Source of the DNA: a virus
Direction: 5' to 3' (one strand)
Length of the DNA: 23,727 nt
Virus record (IMG/VR): IMGVR_UViG_3300007541_000219
Location: 1 to 23,727 of that record
The notes under the pieces are model-generated. The model was not told where the DNA came from. It searched no databases and was given only the letters and a program-made list of their open reading frames with translations. The position numbers and the translations under genes were made by a program. This document shows positions 15,928 to 22,655 of this stretch, one piece after another (position 1 is the stretch's first letter; the number at the start of each line of letters is the position of its first letter).

Positions 15928-15961
15928 CCTATATTATATACTCAAGTTCTCCAATATGCAA
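15928..15961 (-). promoter_or_regulatory. Candidate promoter before the portal gene
   Basis: On the minus strand TTGCAT (15956-15961) is followed after 17 nt by a perfect TATAAT (15933-15938) that continues as TATAATATAGG, the same 11-mer as after the capsid gene. It overlaps the TerL 3' end and would start RNA about 35 nt before the portal ATG. The -35 is weak (3/6), so an activator or a phage-specific element may be involved. Confidence 0.5.
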
Positions 15962-17507
15962 CACGCTTTTGTCTTCTATAATTAACATCGTCTTCCCAAT
16001 CAGGATCTTCTGGATGTCTAAGGTTCCAGCTATCTTTCATATAATGAATAGCCATAGTCATACAGTCAACTTGGTCATCATGTGCGCCATTCGGAAATGA
16101 CATACATTCTGAAAACAAATCGTCTGCCCATACTCTGTCATTAGGTAACCATACACGTCCTGCTTCCATCATTGGTGTAGATGCGTATACACGTGCCACC
16201 TTGTCCCTGTCTGGAAGATAGTCAAGCACAGGAAGCCCTGCCCTACGCATATCCTGCAGCAAAGACTGACCCGAAGCTTTCTTTTCTATAATACAAATAT
16301 CCGGTCTGTACTGTGCGTATAGTTCCTGTGCCAGCCTACGAAGTTCAGGATATTCAAATCTTCCTCTTACATTTCCTAATAGAATAAGATTAGAAGTAAC
16401 ATATTCACCACCATATCCATCTTCTTCATAATTATTAAAGATACCCCAAGTCTGAATTACACTATAGTCAGCCGTTCTACTTGTACTAAATGCTGTATCA
16501 TATGTCTGAATAATAAAGTCACAGCTTGGTGGATCTTCATAATCCCACCACTTAAACCATTTCTTTTTAATAATACCACCATCATCAGGACTTGGATCTT
16601 GCATATACAAAGCATTCCAGTATCTACTACCATTAGATGCACGTATTTCCTGCTCATCCAGTTTTAGTATTTCATCTGATTTCCATTCTGGAAAGTATGA
16701 AGTTCCTACTGGTAAACCAAGTAACTCTGCTGCTGGCTCATCTAGCCATGCAGGTATAGATATAACTTCCCAAGGATACTTGGATTCTTCTACTGCTGAT
16801 TCCTGCTTTAACAACCATCCACACAGGTCATCATAATGATACCGTGTGTTGATAATAATGATGGCTCCATTGGGCATGATACGTGTACGTAAACCTGCAG
16901 GATACCATTCCTTAATATATCTACGTCCTGCTTCACTGAAGCTGTCTTCTTCAGACATCACGTCATCAAGTAATGCTACGTGTGCGCCACGACCTGCAAC
17001 CTGACTACGTACACCTGCTGCATAGTAAGAACCATTCTTATTCGTCTTCCACTTACCTGCTGCCTTAACGTCACTGCGAAGGGACACACCACGAAAGATC
17101 CTTTGAAACTTTTCTGTGTTTACTATGTCTCTTACCGATCTACCAAAGTCACTGGCAAGCTGATCACTGTGTGATACCGACATAATCTCGTGATTAGCAT
17201 AGTTTCCTATGTACCATGCAGGAAATAGCTTGCTGCATATAAGTGATTTAGATGAACGTGGTGGCAGAAAGACCATAAGTCTTTTTACATTCCCTTCTAC
17301 CACACCTTGTAACTTTGAACACAATAGTTCAATATGCCTACCCATTTCAAAGTCAGACACAAGTGTAGGCGCAAATAACTTTACAAATGTCAAAAAGTCG
17401 TCACGTGCTGCTTTATGTATATACTTATTCATAGAATCTTTTAAATTAATATAAGACCCCATACCAGATAGTTCTGGTAATACTCCTGTATCATGTGTAT
17501 CTAACAT
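15942..17507 (-). CDS. terL: Terminase large subunit (521 aa)
   Basis: The N-terminal ATPase has a variant Walker A, PPRSSKS at 82-88, a Walker B HVALLDD at 176-182, and a coupling motif in IIIINTRYHYDDL at about 217-228. The C-terminal RuvC-like nuclease has D337 (TYDTAF), E408 (CIIEKKASG) and D478 (GAHDDQVD), the acidic triad expected for two-metal cleavage. Full length for the family, so probably active. It translocates DNA through the portal encoded next to it and cuts the concatemer. Its ATG directly follows the 66-aa stop (TAAATG), with AAAGG about 13 nt upstream. No small terminase subunit is recognisable in the window. Confidence 0.93.
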   Translation of the reverse strand: MLDTHDTGVLPELSGMGSYINLKDSMNKYIHKAARDDFLTFVKLFAPTLVSDFEMGRHIELLCSKLQGVVEGNVKRLMVFLPPRSSKSLICSKLFPAWYIGNYANHEIMSVSHSDQLASDFGRSVRDIVNTEKFQRIFRGVSLRSDVKAAGKWKTNKNGSYYAAGVRSQVAGRGAHVALLDDVMSEEDSFSEAGRRYIKEWYPAGLRTRIMPNGAIIIINTRYHYDDLCGWLLKQESAVEESKYPWEVISIPAWLDEPAAELLGLPVGTSYFPEWKSDEILKLDEQEIRASNGSRYWNALYMQDPSPDDGGIIKKKWFKWWDYEDPPSCDFIIQTYDTAFSTSRTADYSVIQTWGIFNNYEEDGYGGEYVTSNLILLGNVRGRFEYPELRRLAQELYAQYRPDICIIEKKASGQSLLQDMRRAGLPVLDYLPDRDKVARVYASTPMMEAGRVWLPNDRVWADDLFSECMSFPNGAHDDQVDCMTMAIHYMKDSWNLRHPEDPDWEDDVNYRRQKRVAYWRT

Positions 17508-17708
17508 TTATGCTGCTGTACCTTTTTCTATATTACACTGTACTTCTAAAGTTATTACTGGTGGTGTGCTTTCTTCAGACACAAAGTCCTGCATCATTTC
17601 TGCACTACGTGCCATACATTCTACCTGTGTTTTGTAAGGCCCACGTTTATCATGCAATTCTACACATTCTGTGTTGATCATGCAAACTATAATTATTGCT
17701 TTGTACAT
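17508..17708 (-). CDS. Small Cys-rich protein with hydrophobic start (66 aa)
   Basis: First gene of the leftward operon. It begins MYKAIIIVCMINTECVELHD, then KRGPYKTQVECMARSAEMMQ and ends near CNIEKGTAA. The order C-x-E-L-x-D...GPY.T..EC..R...M followed by a late Cys is a small-protein pattern I have seen in marine and cyanophages. The uncharged hydrophobic stretch after one Lys may be a short signal sequence, placing it in the periplasm with disulphides. The 61-aa protein near 4.6 kb has a related layout. An AAAGGAA site lies 8 nt before ATG. Function unknown; a small terminase role is unlikely given the size and Cys content. Confidence 0.65.
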   Translation of the reverse strand: MYKAIIIVCMINTECVELHDKRGPYKTQVECMARSAEMMQDFVSEESTPPVITLEVQCNIEKGTAA

Positions 17709-17733
17709 TTTTTATTCCTTTCTTGATTTTTTT

Positions 17734-17762
17734 ATTGTAACACACTTGCATAAGTTTTAAAA
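17734..17762 (-). promoter_or_regulatory. Candidate promoter of the leftward (virion) operon
   Basis: An extended -10 (TGT then TACAAT at 17734-17739, minus strand) stands 25 nt before the 66-aa ATG. The -35 position (17757-17762, TTTTAA) is poor, in keeping with an extended -10 type or with activation. It overlaps the -35 of a possible rightward promoter at 17746-17774. Confidence 0.4.
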
Positions 17763-17880
17763 ATATGTTATTTTACTACTAAGTTTCCAAAGGTAAATAC
17801 CTACCCGACACAGCAACACACATAGTTATATAGTTAAGTGAAGTTCGTATAAGTTAATTAAACTTGTACGAACTTTTTTT
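17746..17880 (+). ncRNA. Possible ~100-nt rightward RNA ending in an intrinsic terminator
   Basis: TTGCAT (17746-17751), a 17-nt spacer and TATTTT (17769-17774) form a possible rightward promoter; transcription from near 17781 would end at the terminator at 17880. No ORF with a ribosome site lies between. The stretch contains the near-palindrome AGGTA-AA-TACCT (17791-17802). This is an inference from an otherwise purposeless terminator; the promoter match is only fair. Confidence 0.3.
17841..17880 (+). terminator. Rightward intrinsic terminator in the divergent region
   Basis: Arms 17841-17855 and 17861-17875 form a 15-bp stem with one G-U pair and a 5-nt loop (AATTA), followed by T residues to 17880. 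The opposite strand lacks a T-run after the stem, so it acts rightward. No rightward gene lies before it in the window. Confidence 0.85.
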
Positions 17881-18015
17881 ATAATCTTTTCCTACCAACT
17901 AATTAGCCCCGATGAAAGTCCCTTTAATTTTTTTAAATATATGTCAGGGTCATATATATAATATAAATAAACCTGCATTTTTTTGGTGGGGGTTCTGAAC
18001 AAATCTTTATAGATT

Positions 18016-18031
18016 TGTCAGAAAATTGACA
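18016..18031. promoter_or_regulatory. Operator-like palindrome 1 (TGTCA-N6-TGACA)
   Basis: TGTCA-GAAAAT-TGACA; the arms extend to 7 bp (TTTGTCA / TGACAAA). One of four sites of identical 16-bp geometry in this region. Dyad half-sites of this size usually bind a dimeric helix-turn-helix regulator. Confidence 0.65.
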
Positions 18032-18044
18032 AAGAATCCTTTTC

Positions 18045-18060
18045 TGTCAAGGAATTGACA
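18045..18060. promoter_or_regulatory. Operator-like palindrome 2 (TGTCA-N6-TGACA)
   Basis: TGTCA-AGGAAT-TGACA, with outer C/G and inner A/T pairs giving arms CTGTCAA / TTGACAG. Centre-to-centre distance from palindrome 1 is 29 bp. Confidence 0.65.
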
Positions 18061-18118
18061 GCAGATTGGCAAAGATTAACTAGTTTTTGGTTAGTTTTCA
18101 TAGACAAAGTGTTGATAA

Positions 18119-18134
18119 TGTCAAAAACATGACA
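18119..18134. promoter_or_regulatory. Operator-like palindrome 3 (TGTCA-N6-TGACA)
   Basis: TGTCA-AAAACA-TGACA, arms extended by one A/T pair. Its right end is the first base of the small ATAGCC-AAA-GGCTAT hairpin (18134-18148). Confidence 0.65.
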
Positions 18135-18195
18135 TAGCCAAAGGCTATCCGGTCTATCCAAATCCCCATGGTATCCATCCCCAAATCACTGAAAA

Positions 18196-18248
18196 CAATA
18201 GATTATTTAATTCATAACAGAGTTATGAATAAATTAAATAATCTATTG
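18196..18248. repeat. Bulged hairpin A
   Basis: A perfect 15-bp outer stem (18196-18210 with 18234-18248), an 8-bp inner stem (18211-18218 with 18222-18229), a 3-nt loop AGA and a 4-nt bulge TAAA on the 3' arm only. The core matches hairpin B at 18386-18436, but the outer eight base pairs differ in sequence while remaining paired. Confidence 0.8.
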
Positions 18249-18273
18249 AATTGGCAAAACTCAATCATCATTC

Positions 18274-18289
18274 CGTCAAATCTTTGACA
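18274..18289. promoter_or_regulatory. Operator-like palindrome 4 (CGTCA-N6-TGACA)
   Basis: CGTCA-AATCTT-TGACA keeps the 16-bp geometry with one outer mismatch and two extra inner pairs (GTCAAA / TTTGAC). Its right half is a perfect TTGACA, and GATGAT lies 17 nt downstream (18307-18312), so it may cover a rightward promoter. Confidence 0.6.
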
Positions 18290-18370
18290 AGCTTTTGACG
18301 ATCCGTGATGATCGTTTTGATGATCGTTTTGTTGTGTTTTCACCCGGCAAATCATCATCGAAAAAATCGT

Positions 18371-18399
18371 TTGACAACCAAAAATAAAACCCCTATTTA
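18371..18399 (+). promoter_or_regulatory. Candidate early rightward promoter
   Basis: A consensus -35 TTGACA (18371-18376) is followed after 17 nt by TATTTA (18394-18399), which is a poor -10 and lies in the 5' arm of hairpin B. If used, RNA would start near 18406, about 85 nt before the first rightward gene. Confidence 0.35.
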
Positions 18400-18436
18400 A
18401 TTCATACGAAGTATGAATAAATTAAATAGGGGTTTT
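18386..18436. repeat. Bulged hairpin B
   Basis: A perfect 15-bp outer stem (18386-18400 with 18422-18436), a 7-bp inner stem (18401-18407 with 18411-18417), loop GAA and the same 4-nt TAAA bulge on the 3' arm as in hairpin A. The outer eight pairs are AAAACCCC/GGGGTTTT here against CAATAGAT/ATCTATTG in A. Short flanks after the stem (ATTG-C--AA, later TCAATCAT) also resemble those of A, so the two are diverged copies. Confidence 0.8.
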
Positions 18437-18490
18437 AAATTGCCGAAAAATTTATTCAATCAATCATGTTTGCGAAAGGAACACAACGAC

Positions 18491-18808
18491 ATGAAAAATT
18501 CAGGTTATCAATTGATCAAATACGCAATCAATCACATGGGTTTTGAAGTATCCGTTCAAGATCCTGAAGATTGCGACAATGTTTTCTATCGTGGCAAAAG
18601 CATTGCCAAGGCATGGGAAGAGGCACAATGCATGGATTGGATAGCGTTGGAATTTTACCATATCGATCCGATATCCGGTGAAGAAACCTATGCTGGCTGG
18701 GCAAGCCTGATACATGGCAATCAGCCGAATGAAACTGTATCGGATTATTCCGGTAGCGACTATGCCAATTGGATTGATACATTCTGGAATGATCCTGAAT
18801 ATTGGTAA
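18491..18808 (+). CDS. First rightward gene: very acidic protein (105 aa)
   Basis: The start at 18491 (MKNSGYQLIKYAINHMGFEV) is preferred because AAAGGA lies about 10 nt upstream; an earlier in-frame ATG at 18413 lies inside hairpin B. The protein has 18 Asp/Glu against 5 Lys/Arg, and residues 41-105 contain no Lys or Arg at all while rich in Trp and Tyr (YAGWASLIHGNQPNETVSDY). The GWAxxI...P.ETVxDY part resembles small phage proteins of unknown function (recalled). Being first in the presumed early operon and strongly acidic, it could be a DNA mimic or host inhibitor, as T7 Ocr is; that is inference, since no sequence similarity to Ocr is seen. Confidence 0.8.
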   Translation: MKNSGYQLIKYAINHMGFEVSVQDPEDCDNVFYRGKSIAKAWEEAQCMDWIALEFYHIDPISGEETYAGWASLIHGNQPNETVSDYSGSDYANWIDTFWNDPEYW

Positions 18809-18821
18809 AATCTGGTAACAA

Positions 18822-18875
18822 TTAGAACAGGGAATAATATACCCTTTAGGGTATATATATTATTCCCTGTTCTAA
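18822..18875 (+). repeat. Bulged hairpin C (possible terminator)
   Basis: A perfect 19-bp outer stem (18822-18840 with 18857-18875), a 4-bp inner stem ACCC/GGGT, a 4-nt loop TTTA and a 4-nt bulge ATAT again only on the 3' arm. It starts 14 nt after the acidic gene stop and is followed by a T-rich run (18881-18890), so it may end or protect that mRNA. Its sequence is unrelated to hairpins A and B but the architecture is the same. Confidence 0.75.
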
Positions 18876-18968
18876 ATATTCATTTTTTCATTTTCCGAAT
18901 AGCCTATCCTCATGGGGCTTTGTACCATGATCAGCCACGGTTGGTAGGCGTAGTGTACTGACGACACT

Positions 18969-19064
18969 TCCTGATCACGAAGTAAAACTGATCATCACAA
19001 GGCGAAGCAAGGCCTAACTTGCATGGACTACATCCTGATCACGATGTAAAACTGATCATCACAA
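18969..19064 (+). repeat. Pair of 32-nt TGATCA repeats with covarying stem
   Basis: Copies at 18969-19000 and 19033-19064 (period 64) differ at one base. That base is in a 5-bp stem around a CTGATCAC loop: ACTTC/GAAGT in copy 1 (18966-18970 with 18979-18983), ACATC/GATGT in copy 2 (19030-19034 with 19043-19047), so the change is compensated. Each copy holds a second TGATCA further on. Confidence 0.75.
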
Positions 19065-19074
19065 CAACGGCAAC

Positions 19075-19310
19075 GATTAGAAGGGATCATGCCATGATGT
19101 ATGTTTGTTCAAAAGAAAAAAGAAAGCTTTCTAATGCTTGCTATCAAAAGCTTGATACATTAGAACGGCTTGATAAATTCGCTGACAAATATGAATATCT
19201 TTTTGGATATGTTGTTAGTGGATTAGACGGCGAAAAATTTATCAATCACAATGGTAAATTCATTCGCCTTAACTCAACGGCTAATTGATTAGAAGGGATC
19301 ATTGCCATGA
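19075..19310 (+). repeat. Duplicated leader with ribosome site before two genes
   Basis: The 23 nt at 19075-19097 recur at 19287-19310 with one inserted T. Each ends in an ATG (19094 and 19307) and contains AAGGG about 10 nt before it. The duplication fixes the start codons of both genes and suggests the leader was copied together with a gene or under selection for translation control. Confidence 0.8.
19094..19288 (+). CDS. Small unknown protein (64 aa)
   Basis: Start chosen at 19094 because the copied leader with AAGGG places ATG there, as for the GP88-like gene; a longer frame from 19019 would run through the repeat region. It begins MMYVCSKEKRKLSNACYQKL, then DTLERLDKFADKYEYLFGYV and ends NGKFIRLNSTAN. 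A central charged helix is followed by a short beta part. No family is recognised. Its stop TGA lies within the start of the next leader. Confidence 0.65.
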   Translation: MMYVCSKEKRKLSNACYQKLDTLERLDKFADKYEYLFGYVVSGLDGEKFINHNGKFIRLNSTAN

Positions 19311-20011
19311 AACTAAAACTGCTAGGCGTTGGCAACAATGCAAAAACTGTCAAAGGTGACGGATCAGAATATTTAACCGCTATCCTTTACCTTGCCCCAG
19401 CCGATAGCGTTGATGGTATTAACCTATGCCCTATGGCTGTTATGGCTGGCTGTAAAGCTGGCTGTTTAAATACCGCCGGACGTGGTGCTATGAATTCGGT
19501 GCAACAAGCCAGAATGCGTAAAACCATTTATTGGCGTGATCATCCTGATTTGTTTCTGGCTGATCTTCATAACGATATCCGGCAGTTTAGAAAATACTGT
19601 CAGAAAAAGGGCATTCAGCCTGTAGTCAGGATTAATGGCACGTCAGATGTAAATTGGGAACGCCATGTAGATATGGCTGGCGAATTCTCAGACGTGCAGT
19701 TTTACGACTACACAAAGAATGTTAGCCGGATGAATAAACCACGTCCAGCTAACTATCATCTGACGCTATCCTATAGTCAGGCCAATGATCGTTATGCTCA
19801 GATGTGTTTGGATGCGGCGAAGCAAGGACATAATCTGGCTGTTGTGTTCAGGCACAAGGACAAGATACCGCCTGTGTTTCATGGTATGCCTGTCATCGAT
19901 GGTGACAAAGATGATTTGCGTTTCCTAGATCCACAAGGCGTGGTGGTTGCCCTATATGCCAAGGGCAAGGCGAAGCATGATGCTTCTGGTTTCGTAGTCG
20001 ATGTTGAGTAA
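19307..20011 (+). CDS. GP88-family protein (234 aa)
   Basis: The protein resembles the mycobacteriophage gene product 88 family (Pfam GP88): a Cys cluster C41-P-x6-C49-x3-C53 followed by LNTAGRG, then QQARMRKTIYWRDHPDLFLA, IQPVVRINGTSDVNWER (about 105-121), DVQFYDYTKN (about 131-140) and NYHLTLSYSQAN (about 151-162). The three Cys could hold a metal or Fe-S cluster, which is inference. The reaction is not known to me. It sits 18 nt after the 64-aa gene and 15 nt before an SH3-like small gene. The base composition is richer in GC than the leftward block, as in the rest of this operon. Confidence 0.75.
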   Translation: MKLKLLGVGNNAKTVKGDGSEYLTAILYLAPADSVDGINLCPMAVMAGCKAGCLNTAGRGAMNSVQQARMRKTIYWRDHPDLFLADLHNDIRQFRKYCQKKGIQPVVRINGTSDVNWERHVDMAGEFSDVQFYDYTKNVSRMNKPRPANYHLTLSYSQANDRYAQMCLDAAKQGHNLAVVFRHKDKIPPVFHGMPVIDGDKDDLRFLDPQGVVVALYAKGKAKHDASGFVVDVE

Positions 20012-22514: not shown

Positions 22515-22655
22515 TTGGATACTATCATTCGATCTGTTGCACCTATGGCACTATGGATAGTCATCGTACTATCCATAGTAATCTTTGGAAAAATAACTAC
22601 GAAGGAAGTTAAACACAATCATGCAAAACGTAATCGTATACAACGTAAAAGATGA
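22515..22655 (+). CDS. Possible small single-span membrane protein (46 aa, TTG start)
   Basis: A TTG at 22515 with AGGA about 8 nt upstream, 9 nt after the previous stop, opens a frame coding DTIIRSVAPMALWIVIVLSI, then VIFGKITTKEVKHNH and a basic tail (AKRNRIQRKR). One hydrophobic segment (about residues 9-24) then Lys/Arg/His is a typical N-out/C-in membrane peptide. An internal ATG at 22545 is an alternative start. It overlaps the next gene by 35 nt in another frame, which lowers confidence. Confidence 0.45.
   Translation: MDTIIRSVAPMALWIVIVLSIVIFGKITTKEVKHNHAKRNRIQRKR

Follow-up and report, generated by a model that had tools for sequence, protein, structure and literature searches.

REP and BIME elements are imperfect palindromes found just after stop codons, with several per bacterial genome. 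In Mimivirus, a 'hairpin rule' applies to A-T-rich palindromes at gene ends, whose shape is conserved while the sequence is free; these hairpins end the mRNAs of this eukaryotic virus by polyadenylation. In bacteriophage T7, RNase III cleaves the early message at intergenic hairpins. The model substrate, the R1.1 hairpin, is 60 nt long and has an asymmetric 4/5 internal loop; cleavage 47 nt from the 5' end gives fragments of 47 and 13 nt (PMC6121014, PMC4858673). In T4-type phages, stem-loop modules termed PeSLs (promoter-early stem-loops) are linked to early-gene shuffling, and an inverted-repeat motif similar to PeSLs is present in the archaeal virus HGTV-1 (PMC4503421, PMC3950731).

The DNA analysed here (the window) is a virus fragment of 23,727 bases. 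Its structural genes (terminase at 15942-17507, portal, GroES and major head protein) are directed leftward, and small genes are directed rightward from about 18.4 kb. Two hairpins, A and B, lie in the divergent region between them. They were noticed in an original prediction made from the sequence, in which a third hairpin, C, is missing. The features of this region are as follows.

18114-18134, plus strand: putative early promoter found by sequence comparison, a -10 element (GATAAT) that leads into TGTCAAAAACATGACA, a palindromic site resembling an operator.
18196-18248, plus strand: hairpin A, with a 15-bp outer stem, an 8-bp inner stem, a TAAA bulge on the 3' arm and the loop AGA.
18249-18384, plus strand: A-B spacer of 136 nt, with no convincing gene; CAAGCTTTTGACGATCCGTG is common to the relative L138.
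18386-18436 (18385-18437 with one further T-A pair), plus strand: hairpin B, with 15 (or 16) outer pairs and a 7-pair inner stem.
18491-18808, plus strand: gene M, the first early gene, encoding 105 aa (MKNSGYQLIKYAINHMG...); its homologues in L138 (79% identity) and L009 begin at the same Met.
18822-18875, plus strand: hairpin C, of 23 bp, with the loop TTTA; its 3' arm has a 4-nt bulge.

The ribosome site of gene M is near 18476-18481. A longer open reading frame from 18413 was rejected as gene M, since its start would fall within hairpin B. An Rfam scan of the window gave no match at the gathering score, a tRNA scan of the window found none, and a nucleotide search of cultured phages using the hairpin region found no match. 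The best cultured relatives are about 39% identical by terminase (HTVC023P). The nearest cultured relatives are Pelagibacter and Puniceispirillum phages, with which the putative marine origin of the original prediction is consistent; a host search found no relative among GTDB genomes. Searches with the small proteins recovered few homologues; many of the small early genes probably act against the host. A 234-aa protein (19307-20011) belongs to phrog_1617, of unknown function; it shares 43-53% identity with proteins from phages of Puniceispirillum, Rhizobium and Pelagibacter, one homologue is annotated as Gp37/Gp68-like, and it adjoins the hairpin region in several relatives.

The geometry originally claimed for A and B, namely a 15-bp outer stem, a 4-nt TAAA bulge on the 3' arm and a 3-nt loop (GAA in B), proved exact, at 23 bp in all, and the bulge of either hairpin can shift by 1-2 nt. 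Their distal eight pairs, CAATAGAT/ATCTATTG in A and AAAACCCC/GGGGTTTT in B, are indeed wholly different and each perfectly paired. Hairpin C shares almost no sequence with A and B and is identical in design: all three are 53-54 nt long with a 4-nt bulge on the 3' side, the 5' arm being 23 nt and the 3' arm 27 nt in each. On RNA folding, A has a z-score of -7.0 and B of -7.8, and none of 200 shuffles folds as well. When the whole window was searched for perfect stems with at least 10 pairs, only A, B and C reached 15 or more. The scan for this class of hairpin gave none in 385 kb and none in 917 kb of Markov-shuffled sequence, and none in 20 shuffles of the right-hand 6 kb of the window.

Hairpin A starts 189 nt upstream of B. 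Hairpin B lies 53 nt 5' of the start codon of gene M, upstream of the ribosome site, and C lies 13 nt past the stop codon. The A-B spacer could be a released small RNA. Spacers of the window, L009, L015, L029, L036 and L138 have little sequence conservation, with repeated GATGA/TCATC and GTCA-N-TGAC motifs. Upstream of A, a -10-like element running into a TGTCA-N6-TGACA-like palindrome is found in the window, L138, L036 and L015. Given this arrangement, A and B would probably lie in the leader of the rightward early transcript. Among the candidates originally proposed, a structured leader RNA is the best match for A and B, although hairpins of the same class also occur between genes further downstream.

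Several other elements were noticed in the window and its relatives. Arrays of operator-like palindromes are present at 18000-18135 in the window and upstream of A in L015, L029, L036, L222, G007 and G008; they are of the TTGACA/TGTCAA type in the window and L138 and of the TGTTGCATAAATGTCACA type in other relatives, and the differences between types suggest a putative repressor with changing specificity. A stem, AAGTTCGTATAAGTT/AACTTGTACGAACTT, followed by a T-run at 17841-17882 reads as a plus-strand intrinsic terminator within the divergent region. L138 has a perfect 20-bp hairpin, AAAAAAGTCAATAAAAATC-TCTAAAGA-TTTTTATTGACTTTTTT, at its positions 1364-1407 upstream of hairpin A, a shorter relative of which is near 18001-18018 in the window (CAAATCTTTATAGATTTG). 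A 12-bp perfect palindrome with a 6-nt loop, ACTATGGATAGT-CATCGT-ACTATCCATAGT, is located in an early intergenic gap at 22550-22579 and is conserved in G001.

The relatives compared are 80 IMG/VR loci from a terminase search, 55 of which were testable, their early side being represented by 900 nt or more. One or more strong hairpins are present in 17 of the 55 and two or more in twelve, and the early sides of the 55 contain 42 hairpins against 2.0 expected from shuffles. Hairpins of other sequence occupy the A place in L138, L009, L029, L015, L036, G015, L222, G007, L074 and others. The first two hairpins are 689 and 878 nt from the terminase start in the window, 744 and 935 nt in L009, 876 and 1043 nt in L029, and 1001 and 1166 nt in L020/G007, with A-to-B spacings of 189, 191, 167 and 165 nt, respectively. 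Sequences at matching places are entirely different between relatives, as exemplified by CTCTCTCCCTTACCC-TTTA-GGGTAAGG in L009, ATATATCTACTAC-TACTTAT-GTAGTAGATATAT in L036, ACCTTTTAC-GAA-GTAAAAGGT in G008 and TCTTCAC-GAA-GTGAAAGA in L074. L138, the closest hairpin-bearing relative outside the window's own species, has hairpins at both the A and B places, and its B hairpin is copied identically after a small gene. The apex of C, ACCC-TTTA-GGGT, is common to L009, L138 and G008.

In two respects the original picture of the hairpins cannot be generalised. The bulge is on the 3' arm in the window, L009, L138, G007/G008, G016 and L074 groups and on the 5' arm in L029, L015 and L222-B, and is absent from L036_A; a 3'-arm bulge of exactly 4 nt is a trait of the window's own clade, outside which size and side vary. 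The hairpin element is dispensable, because 38 of the 55 testable relatives, some with 86-88% identical terminases, are without one at the cut-off used. Among cultured phages, HTVC023P and DSL-LC04 have only a few palindromes of 12-13 bp, and HMO-2011 has none in 21 kb.

Alignment of the window-type hairpins by MAFFT was not useful, and their arms were compared by swapping. Among 29 distinct hairpins, the best partner of each 5' arm is the 3' arm of the same hairpin (one tie), the mean pairing energy being -20.0 kcal/mol for own arms and -5.5 kcal/mol for swapped arms; this serves as an internal control, in that arms taken from different hairpins do not pair. From the L036/G015/L222 clade, eight hairpins were aligned over 13 pairs. 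In this alignment 98.1% of cells are paired, as compared with 72.9% in shuffles, changes have occurred on both sides in 10 of the 13 pairs, and the covariation score of 0.794 (0.284 when shuffled) was reached by none of 500 shuffles. Replacement is also seen at individual orthologous sites whose flanks are conserved: before the MRKCCCC gene, G015 has ATATATCTACTAC/GTAGTAGATATAT and L222 has ATATCTATCTCTC/GAGAGATAGATAT, both of which pair. In the G008 clade, one site is occupied by AAACCTTTTAC-GAA-GTAAAAGGT or AAACCCTTTAC-GAA-GTAAAGGGT and the next by AGATAAAT/ATTTATCT, AGTATAAT/ATTATACT or AGAATAAT/ATTATTCT, a 1-nt or 3-nt bulge on the 3' arm being kept each time. Double changes with retention of the 3'-arm bulge are found at orthologous sites with conserved flanks in L226-L234.

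The hairpins can therefore be regarded with high confidence as a selected RNA structure. Selection on structure had been proposed from A and B; the hairpin-bearing relatives keep the pairing with different letters, through double changes, which strongly supports the proposal. At orthologous sites in these uncultured phages, RNA structure thus persists through replacement of the sequence. A second, shorter structure-conserving repeat is present at 18966-19064 in the window, where the two copies of a 35-nt direct repeat are identical except at two positions; the differences compensate each other in a 5-bp hairpin (ACTTC-N8-GAAGT versus ACATC-N8-GATGT), which is followed by AAAACTGATCATCACAA.

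The hairpins occur in a regular order with genes. In G015, L036 and L222, a stop codon, a hairpin, a TTAAGATA tag, a GGAG ribosome site and ATG follow one another in this order at the head of almost all small early genes. The order of stop codon, hairpin and ribosome site between co-directional small genes is found in G015, L036, L222, G007, G008, G016 and L009, in L138 and at C of the window, and in L074 the ribosome site is just 3' of the hairpins. The tag is CTTATAACGCC in the G007/G008 clade and TTAAC-N-TTGA-GAGGAGTT in G016. A module is therefore repeated within each clade, while both stem and tag differ between clades. A pattern search with the L036 tag returned 52 stretches, most of them probably unrelated, and a strong-hairpin scan of these 52 found no new lineage; L181, recovered in this search, is the L222 contig, the third member of the L036 clade. 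No promoter common to the modules was seen by eye, and a sigma-70-type scan of 17300-19400 in the window gave 12 matches against 9.4 expected, near chance.

This recurrence bears on the proposal, also made originally, of replication-origin hairpins. The cumulative GC skew turns in the divergent region, with a minimum near 18.0-18.5 kb, and the location of A and B there would suit origin or packaging elements working as DNA cruciforms. Such a turn is, however, expected equally from divergent transcription. Hairpins are repeated throughout the early gene array of L036, G015 and L222, at one gene boundary after another and placed between a stop codon and the next ribosome site, so a replication origin is rejected as the main reading. 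G-U pairs, which favour one strand (see below), also speak against cruciforms, and this explanation is extremely improbable.

Gene content between the hairpins varies among close relatives. A shared gene is followed on its 3' side by MAVPHNH in L222 and MDEDFEI in G015, the MRKCCCC gene is inserted in G015 and L222 relative to L036, and between MAFRNAFH and the stretch common to G015 and L036, G015 carries additional genes bounded by hairpins. Stem-loops thus recur between genes where gene shuffling occurs, as with PeSLs. These observations could also be explained by mobile or recombinogenic palindromic modules, REP/MITE-like or PeSL-like, which would spread between intergenic sites and let genes recombine at the DNA level, the pairing being kept by copying of whole units. 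Identical copies at several sites per genome (L036, G015, L222 and L138), patchy occurrence among relatives and the C apex common across lineages fit this explanation as well. Copying alone, however, does not explain stems that change by compensating pairs at the same site within the same flanks. Also against it are the preference of G-U pairs for the sense strand and the invariably intergenic location of the hairpins, in step with stop codons and ribosome sites. The 16 records searched, of which some are fragments, yielded neither the REP-associated Y1 transposase (PF01797) nor a tyrosine recombinase/integrase (PF00589), the latter being expected of integron attC cassettes. Dedicated mobility is therefore not supported, and ordinary homologous recombination between copies would be enough. 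The explanation is unlikely as a whole, and the small mobile palindromic element of the original prediction survives only in the weak sense of dispersed modules. Whether the selected RNA hairpins also act as recombination seams is evenly balanced.

Action at the RNA level is indicated by the G-U pairs, of which 14 are on the early-sense strand and 2 on the antisense strand; this count includes copies related by descent and corresponds to roughly 8 independent events versus 2. One RNA-level function would be that of terminators or attenuators of the early operon, and B ends with GGGGTTTTA and a T-run follows hairpin A of L138. A T-run (five or more T in the next 8 nt) is present after only 1 of 24 hairpins, though, so they are not ordinary terminators; they lack the G-C-rich stem with a U-run of an intrinsic terminator, most stems being A-T rich at the base, and terminators in series would silence the operon. 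This function is very unlikely. Alternatively, the hairpins might be binding sites for a phage- or host-encoded RNA-binding regulator, such as a translational repressor or an antitermination factor, which would act both in the leader and in front of each ribosome site. The loop or apex is common within a genome (the inner core of A and B, C-GAA-G in 3 of 3 hairpins of L074, C-TTTA-G in L009/L138), the loop-closing pair is C-G in 11 of 11, and the leader has two hairpins, as is the case with nut or put sites. Against such a regulator, for which no candidate was identified, loops differ within one genome (AGA, GAA and TTTA in the window) and the stems are much longer than boxB-like sites; it is a quite unlikely explanation.

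The explanation that is narrowly favoured is that A, B and C are RNA punctuation hairpins, most likely cut by RNase III and doubling as recombination seams. That the hairpins punctuate the early cistrons and the leader is quite probable, and RNase III as the cutting agent is tentatively proposed by analogy with T7. The host polymerase would start upstream of A and transcribe the leader with A and B and then the series of small genes as a single early transcript. Long stems with a small asymmetric bulge would fold in the nascent RNA, in the leader and between each stop codon and the next ribosome site, and would most likely be cut by host RNase III. Cutting would yield separate cistrons, in each of which the 3' end carries a protected hairpin and the new 5' end lies beside the ribosome site. 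The phage records searched, 16 in all and some of them fragments, yielded no RNase III gene, so the enzyme would have to come from the host. Cistron separation does not directly explain A and B, since neither follows a recognised gene. The sequence of the hairpins is proposed to be free to change because only the fold is read, and the module of hairpin and tag, placed between many genes, is proposed to become also a seam for gene gain, loss and swap, so that recombination may drive the turnover. If the cutting model is true, early messages of these phages are processed as in T7, in unrelated sequence; if the seam model is true, it explains rapid exchange of small early genes without breaking their expression. 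A fuller cassette system of hairpin, tag, ribosome site and gene, in which the hairpins are both RNA cutting sites and recombination seams, stems diversify under pairing alone, each phage has its own set and gene exchange is ongoing, is rather doubtful.

Among known systems, T7 is close in that long irregular hairpins occur in the intergenic and leader RNA of a putative early transcript. A, B and C agree with R1.1 in size, place and asymmetry, which is towards the 3' side. Here, however, the bulge is one-sided, sequences are replaced wholesale, clade-specific tags are present and cleavage is predicted only; a strict RNase III signature is not shared, because bulge size and side vary across lineages. 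REP/BIME elements are similar in being palindromes directly 3' of stop codons with several copies per genome, but the present hairpins are in phages without a REP-associated transposase in the records searched, and their stems differ between copies with compensation. Unlike the Mimivirus hairpins, they are internal to a bacterial operon and precede ribosome sites. With PeSLs they share repeated stem-loop modules between small early genes and the accompanying gene shuffling, although here the modules have no evident promoter, the tag and ribosome site are downstream, and the stem-loops are not terminator-like and are conserved in structure, not in sequence. PeSLs and the RNase III sites of T7 are already known, and what is new is the combination, in a lineage of uncultured phages, of a structure kept while its sequence is freely replaced and of clade-specific tags, where neither a promoter is evident nor a terminator present.
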